From Tubulanus polymorphus (lineage: Eukaryota > Nemertea > Palaeonemertea > Tubulaniformes > Tubulanidae), in contig NC_134026.1 of assembly GCF_964204645.1 (NCBI RefSeq), forward strand, positions 3,100,001 through 3,164,000: a stretch of DNA of 64,000 bases, written 5' to 3'. Position numbers and translations under genes: made by a program. Positions 1,981 to 61,700 of the stretch are shown one piece after another. Position 1 is the stretch's first letter. Every line of letters starts with the position of its first letter. The notes beneath the pieces were generated by a model that had not been told where the DNA came from, searched no databases, and saw nothing but the letters and a program-made list of their open reading frames with translations.

Positions 1981-4900
1981 CTAACACTCAAATGTCTTAT
2001 AGATAAGAGTAACATATCCCATTACAGCCTGCCAATCAGGACGTTCTGTTGTCGCCATATCAGTTATACTCTAAAACAGATGAAAATTTTGCATTATAAA
2101 TACAAGAAGAATTGCAATTTAAATCATTAGATCCTGTAATCACCATTAGTTCTCCGAATATTTTCAAATTAATCTACATATTGGTTATTTAAAAAGTTGG
2201 CATGACACGTTACTTAGCAACTTTTTCATGTGAGCTGAACCCAATCATTTGACCCATATAAGAAAACTCATAGCTTTACAGTTATAAGTGTACTTAATAA
2301 TCATCATTGCTCAAATGCTGCAGGGACTTGTCCACAGTGACTACCGGTATGTAATATCCGACTTACTAGTGTGGCTTGAATCCCGACACTTTCAGCTGCT
2401 CTGAACGCGATCATAAAATTCTGTTTCTTATCGACTGAGGTGAGATCATCGTATGGTATTTTATCGGGTAAGTATGTATGAAGCAAGGCACAGAATGCGA
2501 GTCCATCATTCCAACTACTGCTGAAATTCGTGATATCAATTCCCTGCAAAAAGTTACATGTTTATATGAAGAAGCTTTGCAGGCGTATTTTGTCACAATG
2601 AAGTAGGAACCTAGTCGACTTACTTTGTATTTTGCAGTTTTATGTTGGCACCATTTCAATAGGGCATTTCGTTTCGACCCTCCAGTTTGTTTAACCAACG
2701 TAACTAACGGATCCTTCTTTTCCAATTCACTGTAGAACAAAATTCAAAAAAGTTTAGTAGTGAAATTATAAGATAACGAAAAGCCAGTTATATCTGAAGA
2801 ACGAATATCAATATAACGGTACCTGATGGAATTTTTTCTAGATGAAAGTATAGATGAAGTGCCGAGTATATTTGTACTGAGTGTAGAAGCAGAAGTCGAG
2901 TCTGGGATCAGTTCTGCTGGTCTAGAAGTAGGAGACTCAATAATGGTTGGTGTGCATGTATTACTCGCTTTGGCATCGTCCGTTACCGGTTTATCGTACA
3001 ACAATGCAGTTAACGGATGCCCTCTATTGGTCGGTGTATGAGTTATATTCTCTTTATTGCTTGTATCGGGAGTTCGTTTTAACGCCGATTTCAAGTGAAT
3101 CTCCGGCGGTGCACTGCTACGCCGTCTGCTCGTTTCGTTTTGCTCGCTAGGCGTTTCCGTCGTCTCGTCGGTTATCGTTGATAGCGTTTTCGTGATCGGG
3201 GTTTCGGCGGAACTTCGTCGTGAAGTATCGGCCGCCGGCGGAGACGTACAAACGTGCGAATTTTTCACCTGTTGTTCGATGGATTTGATCAAATTTTTCA
3301 CCGAAATTGACTGCTGGTTATTACCGGTCGTGTTACGCGTTTGTCTTAGATTCGTTAATTCGCGATCGACCGACGTCAAAACGCGACCTCGAATTTCACG
3401 ACTCGACACCGAAATCGAAGGACTCTCCGCTTGATTTTCTTTCACATCATCGGACGCTTTTAACTTCTCCAGTTCGTTGGACACCTTTTGCAATTCTTGT
3501 TGATAGCTGGCCACTTTTTCTTTCAAAAGCAGATTTTCGTTGAGAGTCTCTTCCATATCCTCTTGCGTTTCCATCTTAATGTCATTAGCGATAACGACAG
3601 CCTTTTGTAAATCGGATTGAAACTGTATCCATTCGCTAGACTCTGTTTCGTGTTGCGCTTTCAAATCGGCCATTTCCCTCTCAACTTCAGCGCAGCGCTG
3701 CTGCATTATATCCAGCTGCGCTTGCGTATCTTTCTGCGAGTCTTGGTAGGTTTTCTTCTCCTCGAGACATTCGTCGAGTTCCTGTTCCAGCTGCTCAATT
3801 TGCTCGCGTAGTGTTTCAGTTTCCGTCAAAACGCTCATTTTCTCCGTACTCATTTTCTCCAGTTTGAACTCCATATCAGAAACGCTCGTTCTTGCATTAT
3901 TCTTGATGACTTTCATCTCTTGTTCGAGCGTATTCAAGTTCTCTTTAAAGCGCGTCGTTTCGCACTGACTCAAAGCGAGAGATTCGCGTACGTCTGCTAT
4001 CACCACTTCCAGACGATCTTTCTCTTGTCGCGTTTTCTCAAGTAATTTCGCCACTTCCGATTGATCTTGCGTTTTCTGAAATTGCTCGAGTTTTTCGACT
4101 TTTCCCTTCTCGTTCTCGAGTAAAGATTTATACCGTTGAAGTTCGATTTTCTCTGCATCCAACAGTTCTCTCGTTTCTCGACACGAATCCTCCGCGACCT
4201 TTTTGTCGACTAGAATACTTTCATTCTTATCTTCCAATAGCCTTATCTTATCTTTTAGAGCGACAATTATGTCGAATGTTTCGGAATTTTCCTTTTCCAG
4301 CGATTGCAAACTATTGTTCAACTCCTGTTGGCGAAGGACTATCTCATCTCGTTCGACGTGGGCACTTTTAACGAGTTCAATTAGCTGCCGTTCTCTGTCA
4401 CACTTATTCACATTATTCGTAGTATCTCCGATCAACAAAAGTTTCAAATGATCGATTTGAATTCGAGCGTTTTCTAATTTCTCGGTCTGCGCGCACAGCG
4501 ATTCTAACAGCACGCCGCGTTCGCTCGCTAGATGTTCGTTTTCAGACGTCAGTTCATTAACGGCCGATTGTAGGTCGCCGAGCTCCTGAAGCGTAGCTTG
4601 TAATTCTTCGCTCGTGCTGTAGTGAGTTTCTTCCATCTGCGAAATACGATCCTGTAAACACGCGACGGAAACCTCGCTCAACGCGTCCAAACTTTTATTA
4701 CTCTGACGTTCCCAGCAGCTATTGTTATCGAACGACAGCGACGACGGGTGTTCGGGAGTAACGCACGTCAGATCGACTGAAACTTCAGAATCCGTTTCTC
4801 CGTCGTAATGACCCTGATTATTCTTACCGGGACTCACATCGCTATCCCTACCCCCACTACACGTACTTCCAGCGTGCTGCAAAAGGAGAGATAACTTCTC

Positions 4901-5731
4901 ACTGTCGGTGATCTGCTCCGACAACGGAATACCCAATTCTAACAATCTATCCTTTAACAGTTTATTCTCGTGCTGTAATTTATCGACTTCTTCTTTCGAA
5001 CGCGCTTTTACCTTCTCTTTCAGTCGTTTGATCTCGAATTTATGACGTTCGATTTCGGTTTTACGGTTCTCGGAGACCTGCTGCAAGTCAGATATACGTC
5101 CTTCCAGTATTTTCTTTTCTTTCTCGAAGTTGGCCAACAGTTCGGCGTTATAAGCGAGTATATTCGACGGAGCTGATATTCGCTGCCGGATGACTTTGTC
5201 ACCACGATTTACATTCTGAGCTCCGGCTTTATCGCGGTTAACGTTCTGAGTACTGGAAGCACGTTTTACGGAAGTAGGAGTTTTATTGATATTTTGCGTA
5301 CTGGATGCCTTCTGTAGTGGCTTACTACCCGAGGCGCTGGACTTGTCATTTCTAGACGGACTACTCGTAACTATGACCGGAGTCACTCGGGTTTTAGCTT
5401 TCACCGACTGCGTATGTGTTGTTGCATCCATAGTTTTTAGATTTTCCTCAGATTTTTGTAATCCTATCACTGATTTGGGCCGATGTGCTCCTATATTTCC
5501 GCCGGCGTTGTTTGCTTTTCGTCGTAAAACGCTCGCCAGATTATCATGGCTTTTACTCATATACGTTTTACTCAAAGCGTTGTCTTTTTCCGATGTTTGT
5601 TTTTGTCGATTCGTGGCCGTTTTTTCCGGTACGCTCACTTTCCGTTGAGGCTTTTCAATCGTTTTATTTCCCACAGACGATAACGGAGGCCTTCCCGCTA
5701 TTGAAGCGCTGTTTGCTCTTGCTTTTTTCAT
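1981..5731 (-). CDS. SPECC1L: Cytospin / SPECC1L-like coiled-coil and calponin-homology protein
   Basis: Cytoskeletal linker of the cytospin family, which connects actin and microtubules. Coding exons on the minus strand are 5731-2823, 2729-2624, 2543-2367 and 2070-1981, giving 1093 residues (human SPECC1L is 1117). The first coding exon holds 969 codons: a basic, low-complexity N-terminus with repeated SSTQN(I/V)N motifs near residues 140-180, long coiled coils from about 190 to 800, and a Ser/Thr/Pro-rich linker. The last three exons encode one CH domain (about 970-1093) with [35 protein letters not shown] and [18 protein letters not shown], very close to vertebrate cytospins. The ATG is preceded in frame by TGA three codons upstream, which fixes the start. 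A 5'UTR exon edge at 5767 and a donor at 8521 imply a 2.7 kb leader intron. Confidence 0.95.
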
Positions 5732-5767
5732 CTTGATTCAGATGCAGCCGTAGATCTTTAAAGGAAT

Positions 5768-24957: not shown

Positions 24958-25603
24958 TTTAACTCTCAGATTCTTCTCATCGCCGATAGATGGCGCTCGT
25001 CCAATCAATTTTTTGCTGCCTTCATTTACAAAAACATGAGATGAGATATAAACAAAGGAATTAGGAACGATGGTAATGTACGGTACGGAGTGGATAATGA
25101 AATATGTCTAGCTAAGGCCTCGAAATAAGAGGAAAAGAGATGACGTCCTGTCGGAAGATAGATGGCGCTGCAATAGTAAGTTGATGTGTCAAAATGTCAA
25201 AATTTCCAATTCTAACTCGAATTTACGGTTATTATCAAACATAAGATGCTGATAATGTGAATTAAAGGAAAGAACTGAATTATACCCACCATTCTTCAGA
25301 CAGTCTTTACATCTTTTTAGTCTTAAAACCCGGAAAAATGTGTTTAAACCGTGCGCCGGTTCAGTCAATTCAATACAAATTTAAGAGAAGACTGAAATTT
25401 ATTTCAACTGTTTTCATTGTGGGTTGAAATGTACAAACATCTATAGCTGGAGAAAATATGAAACTTCTCATGTATTTCAATGCTGCTAATATTTCCCTTT
25501 TAGATGAAATTCTGCAAGAGTGCCTTTTTGTCGCGAAATGATTAGTCCGATGAATATGGGTCTTTCCTAGTTTGATAGCGAGTCTTTGTAAGGTGTGAGA
25601 AAA
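24958..25603. promoter_or_regulatory. Divergent promoter region NFATC2IP (-) / MFSD13A (+)
   Basis: 646 bp separate the two start codons. The region contains two AGATGGCGC sites (24988-24996 and 25160-25168) in the same orientation, both preceded by GAT. A TGACGTCC at about 25141 resembles a CRE half palindrome. No coding sequence seen. Confidence 0.5.
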
Positions 25604-27953
25604 ATGAATCTTAGACCTATAACTCGGAAGATACCTCTCGGTTTTTGGTACGGAAGTCTAAGTTTCTTCCAATCGATGCTTCACAACTTATTTCTGTTGT
25701 ACCACATCGAAACGTTCGTTTCCGTTTATAAAATAGACAAGACTTCATTTTGGATCGGCGAAACGATATTTCTCATTTGGAATTCGTGTAACGACCCGCT
25801 TTTCGGTTGGATCAGCGATAAAAACCTTCTGAAAACCGCGGATGAAGTTCCGGTGCCTAACATCGTCCAGAAACGATTATCAGCTCTCGCGTGGAACGGA
25901 CCCCTTTACGGATTATCGTTTATGACTTTCTGGTTTGAATGGGCTCCGCCGGCGATTCAATTTACAGTTTGTTTATGTCTTTACGATGGATTTCTAACCG
26001 TCATTGATTTACACCATTCGGCGTTGTTGGCTGATTTAGCTGTCAGCGCGGAAAAAAGAACTCGTCTGAATTCTTTCTGCTCGGTTTTCTGCGCTCTAGG
26101 ATCGCTGTCGGTGTTCATGTCGTATTTGTTCTGGAAACACAATAATATGTTTCAGTTTAAGTTGTTCTGCGCTATCCTGGCTGTCATATCGATGGCTGGA
26201 TTTTCGTTCGTCTGTAAAATCTTGAGGAAGTATTACATCAAAATTGCGAAAAATGAAATTGCACAAAATCAGGATTTTCATCCAGTAAGGTACGTTATAT
26301 CAGCTGAAATCCTTTTTGAAAGATAACTTCATTCGTCTGATTAATTTCTTTGATTGATCAACTTCTTCATAAATTATAACTAATTCTTTAAATAGTGTGA
26401 ACTTTTACCAACTCTGATTTGTCACTTTCATTTTGTTTATTTGTTATATTTCAGAAGCTGTGATTATGGTCACTACTCTCAACCTGTCTCCAAAACTACA
26501 GACTCGATGAAATCATTTCTTCATCAATTGATCGGCCAGAAAAATTTTATATGGTTTGCTTTGATGAATCTTATCCAGGTCTGGTAACCGGTAGTTTCAT
26601 GTACATTCAGTAGAACCCACTTAATTCGGATTGTTTGTGACTGAGAAATTCATTCGGTTTATGAGAGGTCCATGAATTAATCTGGATTAAACTGAGCCGA
26701 ATTAAATGTGTTCGACTGTATATGTTTAGGAGCCAGTCCAACTTTGATCCCATTTTATACGTAATACCCCTACCTTCTGTTACAGGTCTTTCACTGCCAT
26801 TTTAACAGCAATTTTTTCCCGTTATTCCTTGATAATTTGGTGGCCGAGTCGATTTCGCCAACTGCTGCATCTATCCTGCTGGGTAAGGATTCTTGTCTGA
26901 CAATTTCAGCTATATGATTACTTATATTTGGCGATTACTGACGATAAATGTGTATATTTGATATTGCAGGTATATCATTTGTAGCTCCTCACGTGAATAA
27001 TCTTTATTTCCTGAGTTTATGTCGTAAATATGGTGTATACAAGGTCATTCAAGTTCTGTTTCTCGTTAAACTGGTGCTCTGCATGATTATGTTTTCCTTA
27101 GGACCGAGTCATGTATGGATGCTCTGTCTCTTCATAGCAAGGTACTTCATATTCAAGCACTGTTTTTCTAAATTGACATTTCATTTTGTAATTGTGGTAG
27201 AATTGTCAAAATGCTCGAGAAATATCTAAAAATTCTCATGGCTGTTAAATGAGGAGGTCGTCGATTGTCTGGACGAGATATATCCCATGTATTCTGGGAA
27301 GGGCAATGAGTTTGAAAAAGGTTTAATTGGAATGGGATGTAGTGTCATGTATATTTTGTCAGTCCATTTTTTGCGAGCACTGCTTGGAATAACAATTCAG
27401 ATCGGCTAAATCTTTTCAATTTCTCTTTTCAGTAATCGTGTTTTTACAGAAGGAACGTGTAAATTGTTGAATCTGGTGATTAGCGATTTAGTAGATGAAG
27501 ATTATGTAATTCATTGTCGCCAACAGGCTGTGTCTGCGTTAATGTTTGGAATGACTGCGTTTCTATCAAAACCAGGTCAAACCTTCGCTCCACTTATTGG
27601 CACATGGTTACTTTCCGTTCAAACTGGTGCGTTGACTTACAATACACGATACACTTATATAAATTGATTTAGTAATTTCTTCATTAATTTGCTGACACTT
27701 CTATTTTCTTGAAATTCTAGGGCATGATATATTCCAATCCGGTGGTATGGACGGCTCCATAAAACTAGATATACAGAAACTAGACATCGAATCAAAACAG
27801 GTTTATAAGAGAGGCTGTTTTGATATTCTGATCTACGTGCCAGTTGCCTGCGCAGTACTTCAGCTTATAGCGTGGTCCAAGTTCACTCTTCACGGAAAAC
27901 GACTTCGTTGGATCAAACAAGTCCGAGCCGGAAGTGAACACAGGACTGTCTAG
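25604..27953 (+). CDS. MFSD13A: Major facilitator superfamily protein MFSD13A / TMEM180
   Basis: Multi-pass membrane protein of the MFS GPH (sodium:galactoside symporter-like) clan; its transported substrate is unknown. Exons 25604-26289, 26455-26578, 26786-26882, 26970-27141, 27433-27626 and 27721-27953 give 501 residues (human is 517). The N-terminal exon contains [20 protein letters not shown] and the family motif [11 protein letters not shown], the MFS loop 2-3 equivalent. Later helices include [17 protein letters not shown] and [20 protein letters not shown]. The ATG at 25604 was chosen; an in-frame GTG at 25595 is not a plausible eukaryotic start. Intron 2 carries a small TIR element. 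Confidence 0.92.
26608..26718. mobile_element. Short TIR element (pogo/Tigger-like MITE), degenerate
   Basis: The 5' end CAGTAGAACCCACTTAATTC and the 3' end GAATTAAATGTGTTCGACTG are imperfect inverted repeats of about 22 nt. CAGT...ACTG termini with AAC(C) and AATTCGG are usual for pogo-type non-autonomous elements. The TA target duplication is visible only on the right. It sits in MFSD13A intron 2. Confidence 0.6.
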
Positions 27954-40825: not shown

Positions 40826-40903
40826 TCATCCAAGTACACCCCCTAACACTCCACACAATACTATTATAAGTACCGCGATACATATCATGATCATGATCTT
40901 CTT
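40826..40903 (-). CDS. STX1A: Syntaxin-1 alternative terminal exon c (most distal anchor)
   Basis: After acceptor TTTTTTGCAG the frame reads [12 protein letters not shown], then [13 protein letters not shown] and TGA: 25 residues. It is the anchor most like vertebrate syntaxin-1A (KKIMIIICCVVLG and a small Gly-rich end), so it is probably the ancestral one. It enters in phase 0 after the juxtamembrane KARR of exon 9, as the other two do. It lies 8.1 kb beyond exon 9. Confidence 0.92.
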   Translation of the reverse strand, partial: KKIMIMICIAVLIIVLCGVLGGVLG

Positions 40904-43900: not shown

Positions 43901-46900
43901 TCAATTAAAGCACCAACTAAAATATTTACAAAAATTTACAAAAAATCAAACAATATCATATTTAAAATCAATTATTTAAATAATATGCAACATGATGGCT
44001 GACGAACAAGTGGTAGGCATACACAAAAAAAAAATAGATTTTCAAACATTAAGAATACTTTCTATTTCCGATCGGGTTTTTAAAAAAATCAGTTGCATCT
44101 CGAAACATCAATCAATGGCACAGAAATCATTTCAGATCAGAAATAGCGAGTATTTTATGAAATCAATACGCATAAGCAGCGTGTACGTTCCTGCACGTAT
44201 CAAACGAAACGAAGGACACAATCGATGACCTTCGTCGACCTTGATACGACAATCGCGTATATCGACGTTATTGAATCATTGCGACGAAAGCTTTGAAATA
44301 AATTAAAAGCATATTTTCATAATTTGATTTTTTTTTAGGTTGATAATCAATTATCATTTTTCAAATAGGAGGTTAAGTTATTCGTAGCTTTGCGCTATTA
44401 ATATTTTCAAATCTCACTCCGGCGACGAGATTGTGGCCACATGCATGAATATCTTTCACTGTTCCCAGTAGTCCCAGTTACTAACTCATGAGCCGAATAG
44501 AGCTTTCGGCTGTTACACGTTCACATGCCCTGGACTACATTTTTCAAGCTCCCCTGAGTCGGAATCGTTTTTTAAAGCTTAAGAAAACTTCGCTCTTTTC
44601 ATTCATTATTATTTAGGAACCGTAACGGCTATAATGATGGCTATAATCGCTAAAGCCACTATAATACACACAATAATGATGATCTTCTTCTGCAAATAAA
44701 CAAGAAAACAAAGAAAACTAATCTAGAGAATTATCTACAGTGGGTGCATCATAATGTGTACGAGCGATCTCGAATCAATGAAATCAGAATTGAAAATCAT
44801 CTCAAATGATTATAGAAAAAGCGACGAAAAATCACAAGTTTGGCGCGAAATGAAAATGTTTGCGACCGGAAACTAAATGACTGTGCATATACATAGTGCC
44901 TGAACATTGAATTCGATCCATCAAATTTTCAGTGGTAACGAAAAATCACCGAGAACGTTTTAAAATCGGAATCGAAATTTGAACTTCATCGAATAACGCA
45001 GAATACAATACAGACGTTATATGATATTTTGGTAGACGAGAAATGAAAGAAACTGGGCAAATCGTATAGAGCTGATTATACATACCGGTGCATGCATGCG
45101 TGAATGTGTGCAGGGTTAGAACAAACAAGCAGGCAGTACCAGAAAAAGCATCACTTCGCTAACTAAATAACTGATTGCATTTTTTAATATTTGAATATTT
45201 GATGTTAATTAATCAGTGATATAAATATCGTTAATAATTATATGTCACACAGATTCCGACTAAGTAATCGAAATAAACATCTGCGCAAGATCAATCAAAA
45301 TACAGTTTTAGCGAAACTGATAATACTGATTAGACCCTGTAGCTCTTTTGTGCCAGTTGATTAGAACTTGTATTATTGACGATACGAGAATTCAGATAGA
45401 TCGTGAGTAGATTTGATTTATATCACATTTAAGGTAATGGGTGGGATTAATTAGTATGGCTGCTATACATAGATCACCTTCCTTTAATAATACTTAATAA
45501 TACATGTACCTCGTATACGAAATATTGAATACTTATTAATGCGTTACGTATGATATTGGAGGTATGATATTTTTTGTCGTTCCACCAAACAATGGAAGTC
45601 AAGAATTCTTATACGCCTATTATCGAAAATTCATATGAAATTTTACTATTATTCATGAATTATCAGAGCAAATTACAATGCTACAAGTTACTAACAATTG
45701 TTGAATGAATCTAGGCTATTCATATATAATAACCATATACAGATTATATCTCATTTTAACAATAGTTTTGACTAATGATATTAGTACGGATATCAGCAGA
45801 AGAAAAATTCATTTCCTGTTAATACCAAATTAGCCACTACTCAATCAAGCAAAAATGAACAGATTTTCAGTAAACATCAAAAACTACTGAAAAGACCCTT
45901 ATCATATGGTGACCAATTTCTGAAGTATGTGTGTTAATGTTTAAGTATAAATAAGTGTAGGTTAAATGTAGCGTAACAGATTTTGGATTAGCACCTAACA
46001 TTTTTTGAACCACTAGTACGTAACGCACAGATCAACCATGATTTTGAGGATAACCTCAACTTTTGGGTTGTTAATATAAAAAATCCCACACTAAGAACGA
46101 AAAATTAAAGTCGGAAATGTTTCGGTAAAGCTAGGATATCAACGATCCTAATGGTCACAGTTCTGAGTTAAATTTGACTCTTAAGATATAACATCGAAAA
46201 TGAACTGATTTTAACTCAGAGTTAATTCTAACCCACAACTGTCGAACCGTGAATACTCGAATACTTCAGTATATAGTCGCAACGTTGAATACATTTTAGC
46301 CCAGGGTTTTATCGTTCGTTCATTAAGCGGGATTTTCTATCTTATCGTCGCGACACGGACCGAGTGTTTCATCGATGGTTATGTTAGATCGTGCCATCAA
46401 CTCAGCCAGGAATAGATACCGCTGGCACAATGGCTTCCGTGTTTAATTTAAGGTTATTTTACATATCTACGTTAGTTATAATAATGATAATGACGACAAT
46501 AGCAACCAAAAGAATACACAAGCCAAGAAGCAGCAACTTTTTCTGAAATTAAAATGAAAATAAAAATGCAAGACGTGAACGTGAAACGTGAGGTGCTTCG
46601 TGTAGAAATAATAAACAAGCGCATATAAAAACAAAAATACAGGGTTCCTACAGGACCACAATCTTCAAATTTGAGGGGCATTCGAGGGACTCTCAGGGTA
46701 TAATCACCTAAAATTCTAGGGTTATTTTAAGATAAACTCGGAACTTTCTAAATTGCTGGACAAGGGCAGAACTAGGATCGTTTGAACCCCTGAAATTGGA
46801 ATTATCACCTCGTTAGAAAGTTGTTTGAATAGTTCTTTAGAAATATGGGATCAAAAAGATTTTCTAAGGCATATTTTCAGAATTTGAGGGGTATTTGAGG

Positions 46901-49900
46901 GGCCAATGGCTAAAACATACAATTTGAGGAATTTTGGTACCCCCAAAATTTAATTTTGGAATTATAGGGTTGTTTGAGGGATTTGAGGGACTGTAGGAAC
47001 CCTGAAGTAGGAAAGAAAGATGGAAAGCTCAACTTAAAAGATGAAAACAATGTTGTCATGCATTATCTTTAAACATTGCAAATTATAGCTTGTTAGTTTC
47101 AGTAACAAAAATGCCTTTTGAAGAAAATTGCTAGAATATCTATAAACTGGCAAATAGTGGTATAAAATAAATAAGTCTGATGATAGAACTAGTTTCAAAC
47201 CACCATCACCACCACTGCCATCATCAGTAACAATGTCTCCTTCACCAGAGCATATACAAATGTATAGAAATCTATGGCCGGCGTAAGAGGTGTATCGTAG
47301 GTATTCTTTTGACATTTTCTATCGATGGTTTGATATCTGTGTACGTGTGCTGATTCAACACAGATATGATATCAGATAGCTAAGTTGTCAACGGAATACT
47401 GAAACATATACCGGGTAACGCTTATTGATTTATTTGTCATTAATGCTACCGTCCCTCCATCTGCCATTATATCAATTAGACTACTGTTAATTTTGTTCAC
47501 AATACCAGCCCAGCTTCTCTTACTGATGAAGGAGGTTTCATTCTCTTTTTATTCTATGCTAGTAATTATTAAAGAGCAGCAGACACTTGAATATTCATCC
47601 TTAAGATCCAAAGTGCAAGAAAGAAGAACAAACAGTACCCAAAATATATCAATCTCGCAAATTTTCATTTCTTATATTGTCTACTGCTCATTAAGGGAGA
47701 TGTGCTATGTTGTTAAAAGGGAATATGTGCATTGCCACAGTTTCTTTCATTTGTTTCAAACCGTCAGATTTCAGAGAAAAATCATCAGTAAACCACAGAT
47801 TAATAGCTCGCGTAATTAGACAACATATATATATATATACACAAAATCATCTGATTTATAGATTTACATATAAAATGCCTGAAACAAATGATTATTTCAT
47901 CGAAATCATTTAAAATGATGATTATGCCAAGTTTACACAGGTATTGCGATTCACACGTATTTATGTAGAAGAATGAAAACTGTTTTTTCGTCCGTTCGAC
48001 AAGTTTGTGTAAACCCGAACATCGAACAATGATTTAAGTGACAAGATTCAATTTCCATGATACGAAAATCATAGCGAGAAGAATATTTCATTTCGGAAGC
48101 AATCGAGAAATAAAAATACGATCGCGAAAAAAGTTTCCTCTTGATCGAACGACACAACATGAAAAAAGCGAACAACATCGCAAAAAAATGCTCCAGTCGG
48201 CGTCGTCGACTTTTTGAAGTGATCCGACGGTAAATCAATGATTTACTCAACAGACGCCAGCTTATATGTTTTTGAGCGACTGTAAAATGAGAACTTATGG
48301 ATTTATTTGTACGCGTTTAATAATAATATGCCGAAAAAGGATCACACCCAGTCAGTAACGTAACCAGACAACTACAACATCGACGACAACGACGCAGCAT
48401 ATTTCAGCGATGATGTTGCAATAATCTACAGACAATCAGATAATAATATTTAAAGTACGATAAATATGATTTTTATACCTAGCGCAAACTGAGTAACCGT
48501 TGTGAATACTTCACTCAAAAACTATTCAAAACCTTCCAAATAAACAAAACAGGGTTGTGTTTTCTATATGCTACTGATTTAAGCCCAGGGTTGACAACCT
48601 ATACAAGGTGGCCACTTTCCACCCATTTATAAATCCCCCGAGTTTTCCCTGATTTTTCCATGTGATTACACACAATTCCCCGAGTGAATCAGAGAAATTT
48701 CTAGGCTTGAAATGTTACAATTCATTCATTTTTTATTGAATCACGTACTGATAAAGAATTATGTGGTCAATAGCATTACCCAAATTCACAGATCTTTCCA
48801 GGTTTTTTGGTAAAATTTGTCAAAGAGTTTTCCCTGATTTTTTCTAGATTTTTCTGATTCCATAGGTATTCCAGGTTTTCCAGGTAATTGGCCACCCTGC
48901 CATAGGTTGATTAGAGTGGTTTAAGAATATGCGCAAAGTATTCACACAATGTATAAGTTTGCATGTGGAAGAACTGTATAACACTTACCCTTCTAGCTTT
49001 ACTCTGGTATTTTACCGCTTTCTTCGTGTCCATTTTGGCAGTTTCTATATAATCTACAGATTGTTCCACGTTATATTCTATACGATCTATCATCTCTCCC
49101 TTAAAAAAAAAAAACGCAAAAATTCAAGACCACATACACTGTACCATCGCGATGAAAATAAAGCATCAAACTACAAAGGTAAGGTCAACTTTATTTGTAT
49201 CGAATCATAGTTATTCGACCCATTTCTTAAATTTCTCAAAATTAAATTCAAAATAGACGTGATCATGATTTCACTAATGAATTCAGATGGTGCAACCATT
49301 TTACATCTAATCATCTTCAACATACTTGACTTTCTACAAGCATCGCCATGTCCATGAACATATCGTGAAGTTCTTTGATACTTTTCTCTAATTTCATAAT
49401 ATCCGCATGGCGAGCTTCTATAATGGCTAATGACTGTTTTGCTTCTTGCGTCTCAGTGATGATCTAAAAAAGGAGAATTTATATACATGTATATACATCA
49501 TATATATGGCATACATGTACATACAAGCAAGTAAAAGTGCATGTATGGAACATCCGTTTTTTACGTTGCTAACCGTGAAGACAGAATCATTAATTGAATA
49601 TGTTTATGTACAGTAAAACCTCTGTGCAGTGAATACTTGGTTGAGGGCAAAACGTTCACGGCAGAGAGGTATTCACTGTAGAAAAGGTACAAATCGCTAG
49701 TAAACCAACTAGAAAATTTAGGTTGGTCTCTAGAAAAAAGTGTTCATTATGGGAGATGTTCACTCTGACAAGAGGTGTTCACTAAGGGAGGTTTTACTGC
49801 ACAAGTACATCACATTTGTACATGTACATCGATGTTAATTCATGTGCAGTGGAATAAACGTACCCCTTGAGTAAATATAGCAGGATTTCCGGACTCTAAC

Positions 49901-52900
49901 ATATCTTCCAACTCTTCATTCGTCGTCGTTTTACCAGCTAGAAAAGACAAGTTGATGATAACACATTAATTTCATACTATAGACCCCTTCAGAACTGTTG
50001 GGTCTTCAGCTCTTAGCTATGGCCAAAAATGATACGGCAACTGACTAGACAGCGTCATTTCAAACATTCTAATTCCATTTCATTTTCATTTAGATAAAGA
50101 AGATATTCTAAGTAATTACTAACAGACTGAACAATTTTCTTATATAATCTTATCAATTTCAAGGTGATTATTAACATCTTTCAACATTGACATTTGTACA
50201 ACATTGCCTTATATCAAAAATACAATTTTTATGGATAAATGCCTTTTCCGCAAACCAGAATACACTGATATGTGTATATCACAAGTACAATTCATGCCTG
50301 AGACACAGTGGGTTACGTTGGTTTGAAAGACTTGGATCATTCGTAGTTAGCAGCAGAATATATCCATGCTCTGTATATGTAAAATTCCGTTCGAATTACA
50401 TGGACTCCTCAATTCCAAAAATATATTCTCGGATAGAAAACATGCACATTTTAGTGGTAAAAAATCTTTTTCAAGGGGTGGATGATAAAAAACATAGAAG
50501 AAGGGGAAGATTTGAAGATGGGACCATGCTCAACAATTGAAGTCTTATATTTCAAAATGCATTACAAATACACCATGGACACAGGTTTTGTGTTGAAGCA
50601 GGCGTCTAAAGTGCTCTCGGGAAAAGCCACCACCTTTTATTTCTCGCTAACAACAGCGCACGAATCAAGCACTAATTTCCTTTATTTCTAATCACTAATT
50701 TCCTATCATTACCTATACATCCTACATACTAGCTAAATCTGTATTATCAATTTTTTCGCAATTGAAATTAAAACTAAATATTCGTTTAACTGAAAAGTCA
50801 TTAGATAATCCTAACCATCCAAGACATGGACATACTCTGCTTTAACTAGAATTTATCACTAATAGGCAGTCATTCATAACATTCGATTTCGTATATTAAT
50901 CGACATTCTCCGCGTCAAGAATATCAGTGCTTTTCGCATCGGATTGAAATAAACGTCTTTCAAACTAATACGGATTAAAGGTTCACGCCGCGAGGTATGA
51001 AAGTTGATCCCGAACACGTTTGAAACACGAACACAATATTCTTGACTCGTGATTTTTAAGATTGTACGTTGATTAATTACATCCATCTAGCCTCACAATT
51101 GATTGTCATTTAAGGCCTAGAATCTACGCTCTATGCATAAACAAGTCTATCTACAAAATCAAAGTAACAAATACAAAATCAATAAAATTCATAATATAAA
51201 TCTTAATAATAATTACGATGTAAATGTAAACAATCGAAACTAAATAATCATTATTGATTAGTTAACTGTGACTATAAGCTATTCACTAATTAATAAATTT
51301 CTTACCTATTTATATATATATAAACATTCACAAGTAACCGCATGCAATAAAGCATGTGAATATAAGCATCCAGTGGTTAGTACATTAATTAAGTGGTGGA
51401 TAGGTGCAAGTGCAGGGCTTAGACGAGGGAGTGGGGGGTGGGGGGTTAACCTGTAAACCTGTAGAGTTTTACGGGGGGGCAATGATGATGATGATGATGA
51501 CGATGATGGGATGTCAACTACACAGAAGAAAACAAACTATCATATCTTACTGATCGCCAATTGTCGCTGGATTCGTCCTTTGCATCGATCGCGGTAGTCT
51601 ATCTGACATGCGTTGTAATCGTTCATTACTTCAACAAATTTACGTGATAATGTGGCGTGCTATAAAAATGAAACGAAAAGATGTAGAACGAAAGAAACAC
51701 GACGAAAAAACGATACGTATATATCGCACGCGCACGACGGGCACGGGCGAAACGGTCGGACCCGGTGACACACGCGTGCGCGCGCCCGCGCGGTAGTACA
51801 CACGTATAGATCAGTTCGTCGAGAGAGACGTACAGAGATGGCTAGGACGGACGATTGCAAAGAAAACGTATACCAAAAAAAAAGAAGATAATAATATAAT
51901 AAAATATAATAATAATGATAATAATAATAATAATGACGAGTAGAAGAAGGAGAAAAAAGACGCTATGTTTATTGAAAAGGGTCTTACTGATCTCCATTTG
52001 ACGCTTAATGCGTGTTTTGCAGCGTTCGCGGTAGTCTATTTGTGCTTTGTTGTAATCGTTCATCACCTCGATGAATTTACGCGAAATGGTCGAATACTAG
52101 AAAGAACACACATACAAATAATGACGTGAAAAAAATCGCCACACACACCGACGAGACGCCGGCCTTGTACGCATCATCACATCCCCGATGATGATCACCA
52201 CGAAGAGGTAAAATACGTAGAGAAATGGCAAGAAATTTCAACGATTATTGAGGAGAGCGAGGAATATAAGGAAGATTCCATCAACTGTCATGCGATTTTT
52301 CGTTTTTTTTTTCTTCAAATTTTTCGCCCAGACTTTTAAAATGTCAAAGCAATCAGTTTGGGTATTGTCGAATGCATGCGTAGAAAAGTTTTCCTACTGA
52401 TTGAAAGTTTGACGGATTCAATTATATAAGGTGGTAAAATTGGGATGGATTTATCAAAAGAATCATCTTCATTCACAATTTTCGGGTTGTGGCATGCTAC
52501 AAAGGTTTCGGGTGGGGTAGGGAAGGATATTGCTTGTTAGATCAAGGAATATTATCGTACAGAATTGTTTTTCTGGAATGAATCGTGTGGATTGAGAAGC
52601 GGTGCTTACAACAGTCTGAAACAGATATATATGGTGACCGTGGTACGCTGAAAATACAATCAACGACAACAAATTATGGGTTGAAGTTAATTCCTCAAGG
52701 GCTGGCATCCTGCACATTTGACTCAAGCCTGATCCGTGCTATCAGCTATTGTCTCAATTAAGTTTGACTCGCTCCGCTAGATCTTAATAAGTTGATTTTC
52801 AATAGATCCAATCTGCCCAAGGATTTTAACTCAGAACTGTGGATGCAGGTTTTGGAACCCTATACACAGACCAGACTACCTTATATTTCTGTCTAATGTA

Positions 52901-55669
52901 GAAGCTTTCACCCAAAATGAGAGTAATTTGACGTAGAAAATAGTACCGTAGTTAATTTGAAAATGAACTGGAAATTACTCTGGTTTTACCGGAAGTGTAT
53001 TTTGATATTTTTAGGAGTAGTTGAACTTGTAAAGAGTATAGAAACAACTAATCAGGTCTGTATACTGTCGGGTGAGGATTACAATCACCCGCACCACGCT
53101 GAACGACCATTGCTAAGATTATTCATCGTTCATTGGAGCTTCCCACCCCCTTGAGACATGAACCTCATATCAACTCGCCCGTGCCGTGACATCAACTGCT
53201 GAAATAAATCCAGAATTGGCGAAGCCGTTAATTTTCGAATCGCTCTGTAAAAGAACATACAAGAGACAATCATGTAAATGAAGTTTTCGCTGAAATGAAA
53301 AAATACTCGTAAAAAATGCGTGATAGAAATTGAAAAAACATCGAGGAAAAAGGTGAACACCAATAGAAAACAGGCTGGAATAGACCACAACCAATGAGGG
53401 ATGACCGTAGAAGCAGAAGTAAGACCAGGCGAGCTCCTTTCAGAAGAGTCCAGTCATAGAAGAAACGAAAATGATAAAACATGTAGAAATTTGATAAATG
53501 ATAATCTTTGAATCAACATGGCTGAACGAAGCCATTCAATCGACGAGACTTCAATCGGTCATCGCATCCGTCTGCAAATAATTTTCAGTTAACTGCAGGC
53601 AATCAGCTCTATGACCTGCGACATAACTAAATAAATTATGTCCTAAAGCAAACCAAATGCAATTGATTTTGTCACTTTTCTTATCATTACTAATAGTTGC
53701 CCTTCAGGTTCAACTTCAGTGCTTAACCTTTGACCTTATATTATGTAAAAGCAGCTAAATTGCCTTTTAAACGAAGGAAATCTAGTTATTATGTTCACGC
53801 AGACATATTCATATATGACAATAAAAACCTCTTAATTCAAACTTTTTGGGACTGACAAAATCGTAATCTATACTCAAGTGAATCAAATCAGTATTAGCAG
53901 GTTTTACAGAATTCACAAATCATAAATCTCATTCGTGGTTAACTTTCTGAATACAGGATTATAAAGATACTGTGGCAAGTGAGTGAAATGTGTTCGATGA
54001 TTTTTTGGAATCAGTTTTTTACCTGTGTTTTGCGTATTCGCAAATCGGCTGATGATTTGTTGGAATGTTCTTCTTGTTCAATATTCTGTTCAATAACTGA
54101 AATTTAAGAGAAATAGATTCATGAGGACAAATCATCTAGATCTTTATGAAGATGGTAATATGCAGATGATTTCCTGATTCGTTTAGGAATAACAACTGCA
54201 TTGCCCTTACCTTTTAATTTGCCCCTCACTTTGTTTGCAGTTTTCTTGATATCCGACATTAATTCTTCTAATTCACCTTTCATTTCTACAACACATTAAA
54301 AAAATTGAAAATAACATATCAGGAAAAGATTTCACAATAGGCTATTAGGACAACTGAAATAAATTGAGTTCATTTTCAACTGGATCAAAATTGGAGTTCA
54401 TTTTCAATAAATGATATTTCAATGTAGTTCCTGGATAAATGGACTCCTTTTTTTATCTGAATTAAGTGAAAATCCGGGTGCAAAAACCCAAATTAAGCGA
54501 ATTCTACAATGTTTTCTTGTCTTCATTTTGCTTGAGATATTGATAATACGCAGGAAACGAATAAGGGAAGATGTAACTTTTTCATTTAAAAAATGGCATT
54601 GCGGGAAAGATCGTCAACATTTTTTACAATGGTTTCCTTCGTTGGATTATTACGGTCTGCGGGGTAAGGCTAAATGCTACTATACATTATCAGACGATCA
54701 TATAAATTACACATCATCGTAAAATGGGTTGTTTAAACGAATAAACACGATTATGAGGGCGCCAGTAAAATGTCTGACAAACCAATACAGCAGCAGCAAC
54801 AGCAGCAGCATTATCATCAAACAAACAGCACGAACAGCAGAAATAATAATATCCGACTGTCCCAGATTTCAAATAAATAGTCAGTCATATAGGCCTAAAT
54901 GATCAACTGTTATACTGACTGACCAATACAGATCAGTCATTCCGGGATATCCAGTATTACAGTACACTCCTCCTGAATTGGTTGTGTTTATCTTAGTAAA
55001 CCGGTAATTCAGTGGGTTTTTTATAAGCAAATTTGTATCCTTGACACAACTAATCTCAAATTCCGTAATCGGTAATACTGAATCCAACTATACTGATTTA
55101 GGCGTATTTAGTCATCTGTACAACTACAAACTAGACGAAAATGTTTGATCGCCTATTTCTCAAAATTGAAAGAGTATTAAAGGAGTTTGTGACAGCATTT
55201 TCCGTTCAACGAAGCAAGAATTCGTAGGGACTCTGCAATCAGTCAGTCAGGTCATGGTGGCCAACACACACACAATCATTCAGTAGCCAGGTCGCCCTGA
55301 CCTGGAGGAGCAACTGCTTCCATTCCGTCCAAAGCATTTGACGAGCTAACCAGTCATGCGTTGTCGAGACTCAGCATTAGATTCAGTTGGCCGGGTAAGT
55401 TAGCCAGCCGTTAGGGCTAGCCGTGAACGCACTGACAGTAGTAACAGCAGTGAACATCACTTAATGAATTCATTTGTTTCACAGATTGATTCTTAGATGT
55501 TGTAACACACACTCAGTTTCTACATGTTTAATGTTTAATCAATAATAATAAGCGGGCTACATTCCAATTCTCGTTCTATCACTGTCAATTTCGACTGATA
55601 GAGCGTCGTAGTGCTGATTATATCTAGCCTTACAGTGCTTACACGAGCTGCTGATTTTTATCATCACTA

Positions 55670-58700: not shown

Positions 58701-61700
58701 GAGAGAGAGGGGGGAGAGAGAGGAGACAGAAGAGCCCAGGTGATTACTGTATGGCCTATGTGATTTTCATCTCAGCAATGCCCCGAGAGATCAGTTTAAT
58801 CAACTAAGTAACGTTCATCTCGAGACAACAGTACAGACACTACTACGCCCGATCGATATTATCATGGACTATCTAAATCTTCTGTTCCTCGTCGTCAGTA
58901 GCGGAATTACGATGAAACATAATAATATATATATATGTCGTATATATATATATAAGATTTCATTGGTCAGATATAACTTGAGGGGACAGTGTTCTGAATA
59001 CCGGTCGGTCGTATGTTCAGATTTCTGCGGCTGTTGCGAAATTCTCGTCGAAAGCTCGCTGAGATATGAGTAATTGCAGTTGATGCGGTCGGTTTTTATT
59101 CCGAGCACGTCACAGACCCTTTGTATATCAGGCCGGCTACGACTCGACGAATCAGGGAATAATGTACAGTAGACCGTGGTGATATGATAGCGCATACACA
59201 CTGCAGATAGAGAGAAGAGAGAGAGAGAGAGAGCGGGAGAGAGAAGAGAGAGAGAGAGACAATCTTGTGATCAATTGTGACAGAGTAGAGTCAGCCAATG
59301 CAACCTTCGTGTATTCTATGAAAACACCAGTTCCTAGACGGATCAATACATTGCCAATCCCAGGCTAGCAGCTTATCCAATTATTTCCTATCAAATCCCG
59401 TTTCTAGGCGAAGTACATAAGCGCGATGCGAAACGCGACGCTCAACCTTGGATACGAAAGGCGCATTAAGATGCGAATATGCTGTGTAAACAGTGACAGA
59501 CTATCGGGTGCGAGATTTCCGAACTCGTTATAATGTTTCAACATCCGCTGAGACGCACAACGCGGGCTCCGATGGAATCTATTAAATTTTCATTTAAACC
59601 GTCGAGGTGTCGTATCGCCGCGGCGCGCGTACCGCGTTGAAGAAACACACCGGCGCCAGACAATACCCGCTCGCCGAGCGGCGCAATTCTCGATACAACC
59701 GTTTTTCGTGAAGTTACCGAATTAACATTTTCACTTTGCGGATGAAATAACGACGAGACGACCTTCGTTCTCGTATCTAACGAAAGCTCAAGAAATCTCG
59801 GTAGATTTTCACGACAAGAAGAGGCGCGCTATACAACTTAGCTACATCGCTATCGAAAGCTGGATACTTTAATCTTCAGACGATTCATACATAATTGAAA
59901 AGAGAATGGTTTTGTGCGCGGCCAGTAGCTATCACAACTACAGCTATTGCCGTAATAGACAAATGAGAAGTCACAATATCATACAATATACATAGATATA
60001 TAGATATTGAACGGCTTGAGTCGGTTCACTATTGCCGCATAGTAGCGAGTGACCATAACTACCGCACAGCAAGGTGAAGCAGTTCCATTTCATGTGCAGC
60101 TTTATAGAGAGATGAAGTCCACGCCTACACTACGTTAGCATTATCTGAAAAATCAATTGCCATCTAATGCCATACTTCACTTTCTCCTCGACAGATCAAC
60201 CGAATAATCCAAATGAAAGCTCAATTTGTTTGAGCTTTATATGGGAGCAATAGCGAATAGTGATAGAAGGTGATATCTGATAACTAGGACCGTAGTAAGA
60301 GAGCTAAGTGCTTGTACCGAATACCGGACCGTTGAAATCGGCTTTCAAGGATAGCTTGCAAGCGAATTCAAAGCGAAATAGATATAGTAACGAAATTTCC
60401 AGACAGGTGCTTACCATTACCTAATCAGCCAAATAAAAACCTTCCTTTCATAGTTGAATAAATGCTGAAAACCTAAGTGAGTTTCTACTTACTATCATCG
60501 CTTTGAGGGGCTGACAATATTGCACTATGTTTCTTTTTAACTTCGTCCACATTCGCCGATATTTTATCGATCATCCCGCGTATCTCTTCCACCTGAATAC
60601 AAACATCCGCGATAGAAATTTCGATGATTCGATTAAAAAAAAAATCTATTCATATTTTCAGTCGTTTTTTACTACATTTATTACCTGCTCAAAGAATTCT
60701 TCCATAAATCCCCCGCTGTCCATATTGACAGCCACATCGTCAGGTACATCATCATCATCGCTCTGAGCCTGAAACAGACGAGAAAAACTTTCGAAAAACT
60801 AGCGTAACAAAATTACAGATAGGAACAGGGCTGATAAGTGAACCCGCAATTGACGATGTTTAACGATATTTTTGTTTTTGATATTTCAACTAAACCATCA
60901 GAGAAACAAAAATGAGAAGTCAAAGCCACCGTCACTCAAATGTGATAGGCCCTACCTAAGAAACCTACATGCTACTCGCTAATAGAAAACTCAAGCCCCT
61001 AGTTGAGGTGAAAAATCTAGAGTTAAGAAGGAAATTATCTGAATGAACAATTTTCTCATCTTAAGGTAGATTACCAATCATTAATCCCCTGGATTGGAAG
61101 GGATGCTTGTCATTTAAGGCCGATAATCATTAGGCATGTGAATGACGACTGGATCTGTTGAGAATAGTTGCTACCAATTCTAGGCATAAGTTTCATAGCA
61201 AAAGTCAAATAGGCCTACATGGCAAACGAAACAACAGCTGACATTCAGATTAACAAGACTTTCTGAAGAAATGGTTTCTTTCCTCAACTATAAGACATTA
61301 GCCTATCATAATCCTTATCAAATCGTCGTGTTCTTTTTATCTACAACCCTAATGGTCTAAACACAGCTGTAGAGTTTGTGCAGCAAAATAAAAAACAAAG
61401 CCTTGATTTATGATTAATCCTATTTAGAAGAATGCCAGTTGGTTGAGCAGATTTGATACTAAAAAATTATATCACCAGAATGCCCCGAAAAATCAAATGG
61501 CTTTTCAGCGTGAAATGAAGAGAGACATTAATTATACGTTACAAACCACAAGAATATCAGGCCTAAAATGGAATAACTACTTAAGGATTATAGAATGTCA
61601 AAAATGATCAAATCACTTCATCTTTTACCAAGAACTATGAAACTAGGTATCGACTAAACAGAGTGATTCATACTACAGGGCTACATACAAATAACAGTTA

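Follow-up and report, generated by a model that had tools for sequence, protein, structure and literature searches.

A tandem, likely mutually exclusive exon pair encoding the Hc end and linker start of syntaxin-1 in Tubulanus polymorphus

The syntaxin-1 locus

The window analyzed here is the whole 64,000-nt stretch of Tubulanus polymorphus contig NC_134026.1 from position 3,100,001 to 3,164,000, and the positions of the gene described below are numbered within it. Its minus strand carries a syntaxin-1 gene, whose best matches in the PDB are syntaxin-1A and squid s-syntaxin. Syntaxin-1 is a core fusion protein of the nerve terminal, and its opening step is regulated by Munc18 and Munc13. The gene model was obtained by tblastn with rat syntaxin-1A and by inspection of splice sites; the query agrees with the PDB syntaxin-1A entries at E 2e-164. 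The model covers exon 2 and everything downstream of it; exon 1 (N-peptide) was not located.

The Habc domain, the linker, the SNARE motif and the C-terminal anchor are encoded in this order. Exon 2 (60685–60768, 84 nt) encodes the N-terminal region, ending in FMEEFFEQ, exon 3 (60493–60592, 100 nt) encodes Ha, exon 4 (54211–54285, 75 nt) encodes Hb, and exon 5 (54023–54096, 74 nt) is the constant exon upstream of two versions of exon 6, namely 6a (51988–52096) and 6b (51551–51659), of 109 nt each. Exon 7 (49864–49937, 74 nt) encodes the part of the linker with LESGNP, where the L165/E166 open mutation lies, and is followed by exon 8 (49326–49463, 138 nt) with the first part of the SNARE motif and exon 9 (48989–49099, 111 nt) with its second part and KARR. 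All introns of the rebuilt gene start with GT and end with AG. The coding sequence can finish in either of two alternative last exons on the same minus strand, 10b (44609–44689, 26 anchor residues given) and 10a (40826–40903, 25 anchor residues given), which encode different membrane anchors and resemble exons 8a/8b of unc-64. Combined with the exon 6 pair, these two anchor exons would allow for four different proteins. Apart from the exon 6 pair, the gene is otherwise single-copy.

Elsewhere in the window, a 997-codon open frame on the minus strand (2744–5737) is mostly coiled coil and gives the impression of a possibly cytospin-like protein, and a 244-codon open frame on the plus strand (25592–26326) has the look of a transporter with several membrane passes, perhaps MFSD13/TMEM180-like. 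An 18S probe against the genome recovered only a 52-nt 18S-like stretch (1147678–1147729, L009, G000:C1), where Rfam sees no rRNA; complete rDNA seems to be lacking in the assembly copy or withheld from it. Searches for COX1 and for the molluscan haemocyanin and annelid linker families returned no match, with the controls of the latter two silent as well.

Two interchangeable versions of exon 6

Exons 6a and 6b lie on the minus strand exactly where the original prediction had placed them, and the properties it had attributed to them hold on measurement. Both exons are entered in phase 0 and left in phase 1, each encodes 36 residues, and the identity estimated by eye at about 69% of the protein amounts to 25 of 36 residues (80 of 109 nucleotides). 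The splice sites, which had been judged good, consist of AG acceptors (...TTCTTTCTAG/TATTCG for 6a and ...CATTTTTATAG/CACGCC for 6b, the slash marking the junction) and of the same donor, CA/GTAAGA, in both copies. The two exons are separated by an intron of 328 nt (51660–51987, minus strand). With either 6a or 6b, the syntaxin-1 frame is open from exon 2 to the stop codon. When both copies are joined, the frame shifts and 6b is read for only a few codons (TRHIIT) before a stop; when neither is included, the shifted frame stops inside exon 7. The earlier argument that exactly one copy must be used is thus supported by the outcomes of the frames.

Several marks of a mutually exclusive pair are found in 6a and 6b: adjacent homologous exons, equal length and phase, intact splice sites, a protein broken by joint use or joint skipping, and selection at the protein level. 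We conclude with high confidence that the exon pair is real and well preserved, and judging from its sequence the two copies are likely used in a mutually exclusive manner in mRNA.

Candidate control of exon choice

Convincing docking or selector pairing between introns was not found around exon 6, where the inverted repeats are short and AT-rich. Duplex energies were no better than those of shuffled sequences, with one marginal exception among ten comparisons (z = −2.3), in which the 6a–6b intron was paired with the final part of intron 6. Competing intron pairing is therefore not claimed as an exclusion device. Simple steric exclusion also seems to call for a shorter intron than the 328 nt present here. 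At the protein level, the frameshift alone would enforce the one-copy outcome.

Three short elements near the pair are candidates for its regulation. A single TGTGTGTG lies 44–51 nt upstream of exon 6a (52140–52147, minus strand), with 0.01 expected in 200 nt. This sequence is identical to the top CLIP motif of UNC-75/CELF, and UNC-75 governs the choice of anchor exon in C. elegans unc-64 (PMC4946901). The 328-nt intron is rich in TTCTT/TCTTT pyrimidine runs (9 found vs. 1.4 expected). About 45–70 nt downstream of 6b there is a CAT repeat (51480–51505, minus strand) that raises the local YCAY count (15 found vs. 4.9 expected) and that may be a mere microsatellite; YCAY clusters are of the kind bound by NOVA proteins. 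These matches resemble simple repeats, and the motif, the pyrimidine runs and the CAT/YCAY tract are offered as leads only.

Exons 6a and 6b resemble different relatives

The two copies were compared with the corresponding segment of rat syntaxin-1A and of squid s-syntaxin (PDB 1s94). The rat sequence is closer to 6b (29 of 36 residues identical, vs. 25 of 36 with 6a), and the squid sequence is closer to 6a (30 of 36, vs. 26 of 36 with 6b). At four sites (120, 123, 150 and 153, rat numbering), 6a goes with squid and 6b with rat, the squid protein carrying the 6a-type Y120, I123, K150 and M153. Each of the two other possible groupings is favored by one site; position 132 joins 6a with 6b. In the part of the protein outside exon 6 that was compared, the present protein is identical to squid at 91 of 103 residues and to rat at 82 of 103, with 77 of 103 identical between squid and rat, values that make the animal a probable lophotrochozoan. 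The squid protein's likeness to 6a suggests expression of the 6a type in a mollusc.

Exon 6 spans the end of Hc and the start of the linker

Exon 6 corresponds to rat residues 120–155. With the boundaries of Habc at 27–146 and of the linker at 147–199 (PMC6320071), it covers the end of Hc (120–146) and the first nine residues of the linker (147–155). The original assignment of the segment to Hc is therefore correct for residues 120–146 but not for the last nine residues, which belong to the linker and include R151 and I155, described as the essential site by which the MUN domain of Munc13 targets the linker (PMC8728020). Trp in place of C145 was reported for a human neurodevelopmental disorder (PMC9995539).

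The two copies differ at 11 sites (120, 121, 123, 128, 136, 137, 143, 147, 150, 153 and 154). In the linker part, 6a has T147, K150, M153 and E154, whereas 6b has G147, Q150, L153 and A154; squid has Ala at 147. There are four changes among nine linker residues vs. seven among 27 Hc residues, a sample too small to claim enrichment. Alternative charges on the surface of Hc had been proposed to tune the switch between open and closed syntaxin. Opening driven by Munc13 is an equally good candidate, because four of the 11 substitutions, as well as R151 and I155, fall in the linker part. Glycine 147 of 6b, a helix-weakening residue at the border of Habc and the linker, vs. T147 of 6a, together with the extra lysine beside R151, could alter the stability of the Hc extension and the engagement of Munc13. 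It is plausible, from the residues exchanged, that the choice of exon 6 acts as a splice-set switch of syntaxin opening.

Alternatively, both exons may be used with a choice that is nearly neutral, the two proteins being alike in opening and in fusion. This would agree with C145, R151 and I155, which are unchanged in both copies, and with the conservative nature of most substitutions, but the two types have apparently long been kept distinct, with four 6a residues common to squid, which drift alone would not favor. We regard near-neutrality as unlikely, although it retains appreciable weight.

Age of the duplication

The tree ((6a,squid),(6b,rat)), estimated from four sequences of 36 residues, is the best by 8.7 log units. 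In an AU test on the same small data set, the tree of a recent duplication gave P = 0.094, which does not reject it at the 5% level, and the third tree gave P = 0.018. In simulations under the recent-duplication tree, lenient in that the squid branch is near zero, none of 2000 replicates gave four sites of the kind described above. Most likely, and with moderate confidence, the duplication would be older than the split of the present animal from squid.

A pair that is real and mutually exclusive could still be local to this lineage, having arisen after the split from squid, with the likeness of 6a to squid due to convergence. The small number of sequences and residues, the AU value for the recent tree and the joining of 6a with 6b at position 132 leave room for this. 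However, a dS of about 1.5 between the copies is far from recent, and the four sites against one, a count that the simulations never reached, favor the old split. A local origin thus appears fairly improbable.

The human gene offers a further comparison. Judging from its variants c.284-1G>A and c.466+2T>C, STX1A has one splice site at c.284 and another at c.466, which together enclose 183 nt (PMC9995539). Because 183 nt equals the length of exon 5 plus one exon 6 in the present gene (74 + 109), the exon boundaries appear to be common to human STX1A and the nemertean gene, with room in human for one exon 6.

Both copies have been held as protein sequence

When the 6a peptide was searched against the whole 267.8-Mb assembly, only 6a and 6b matched (E = 4.7e-18 and 4.8e-12), and a search of the whole assembly with PF00804 returned the same two places only. 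No exon 6 retrocopy with spliced junctions was found in the whole-genome peptide search. Chance resemblance is ruled out by there being only two matches genome-wide, both in the syntaxin-1 gene. An assembly duplicate is likewise ruled out: 6a and 6b have 29 nucleotide differences over 109 nt, with far more change per synonymous than per nonsynonymous site, and their downstream flanks are unalike (16 of 60 positions identical).

Between 6a and 6b, 14.5 synonymous changes are located on about 21.7 sites, whereas 14.5 nonsynonymous changes are on about 86.3 sites (pS = 0.67 vs. pN = 0.17; P = 1.3e-5, Fisher's exact test). Half of the inferred changes are thus synonymous, while only about one-fifth of the sites are. 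Six of the eight comparable fourfold sites differ. By the NG86 method in Biopython, dN is 0.195 and dS is 1.54, and the resulting dN/dS of about 0.13 is a joint value for the pair, which cannot tell whether one copy was recently released from selection. Because dS far exceeds dN, the two copies have long been held as protein.

One could suppose that the pair is an old duplicate of which one copy is now unused or nearly so, its splicing having been lost recently. In favor of this are the replacements of the conserved E154 by A and of T137 by C in 6b, and of G147 by T in 6a. Nevertheless, the acceptors of both copies are good, their donors are identical, their frames are open and their length is conserved, their proteins are 69% identical despite heavily changed synonymous sites, and each keeps features of a different outside relative. 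We give little credence to the loss of one copy. It is very improbable that the pair is a poison exon device shutting off syntaxin-1 through frameshift and RNA decay instead of making two proteins: double inclusion and double skipping do each stop early, but a poison exon need not keep its protein, and here, per site, nonsynonymous change lies far below synonymous change and squid has a protein sequence of the 6a type.

A proposed splice switch of syntaxin opening

The explanation that we prefer, with a probability of roughly 0.75, is that syntaxin-1 carries exon 6 as two tandem, mutually exclusive copies, the choice between which tunes the opening of the protein. Each productive mRNA would take exactly one copy, because including both or neither shifts the frame to an early stop; RNAs with both or neither would encode a truncated protein, as read from their frames, or would presumably be destroyed. 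The pair derives from an old duplication, and selection has kept both copies as protein, as dS vs. dN shows. As far as rat and squid represent other animals, 6b would retain the form general among them, and 6a would be that of squid. With 6a in place of 6b, residues would change where Hc ends and in the initial turns of the linker, next to R151 and I155, which stay the same, and also at sites from 120 to 143. This would probably affect how firmly Munc18 holds syntaxin closed and how easily Munc13 opens it, so that priming may differ by cell type or release site. Exon 6a is predicted to be the neuronal form, because the squid sequence is 6a-like.

Comparison with known splice switches

The closest working parallel to the proposed switch is exon 5a/5b of SNAP-25, a mutually exclusive tandem duplicate in which 9 of 39 residues differ and which is needed for normal neural function in mouse (PMC2581893). 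As in that pair of bony vertebrates, the copies here are in tandem and closely spaced, cover a short conserved segment (11 of 36 residues differ) and stem from a probably old duplication, SNAP-25 being the partner t-SNARE. Unlike it, the present pair lies in syntaxin-1, at the end of Hc and the start of the linker, and would work like the SNAP-25 pair without being a member of it. The SNAP-25 case is also vertebrate, with isoform use and physiology proven, whereas the present pair is known from sequence.

In C. elegans, exons 8a/8b of unc-64 swap the C-terminal anchor (PMC4946901). Alternative splicing of a syntaxin-1 gene, two anchor last exons (10b and 10a) and a UNC-75/CELF-like UGUGUGUG motif just upstream of 6a are points of likeness. 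In contrast, an anchor swap only is described for unc-64, and the consulted passages mention no internal Habc/linker pair (PMC4946901). Human STX1A exon 6, as implied by the variants at c.284-1 and c.466+2, has the same boundaries and length and encodes residues 120–155, in one copy vs. two here (PMC9995539). Squid s-syntaxin (PDB 1s94) is of the 6a type and is known here as one protein sequence.

The original prediction knew of no such pair in a syntaxin-1 gene, and a full-text search of an open-access library turned up no syntaxin-1 gene described with a mutually exclusive pair of internal exons. Isoforms predicted for mollusc or annelid genomes may already include the pair.

A wider reading, to which we assign somewhat less than even odds, is that the pair represents an ancient, conserved Hc–linker isoform switch in a large group of invertebrates, perhaps most Lophotrochozoa, in which splicing would set the closed/open equilibrium by cell type and squid syntaxin, itself well studied, would be only one of two forms. 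Syntaxin opening is usually studied through the engineered mutants R151A/I155A and L165A/E166A. A natural exon pair that swaps residues around the kept R151 and I155 would provide a set of variants tested by evolution. It would mean that SNAP-25 is not alone among neuronal t-SNAREs in owing a splice switch to a duplicated exon, syntaxin-1 being the second. The pair would also serve as a warning that the syntaxin data from squid and other invertebrates may cover one isoform of two.
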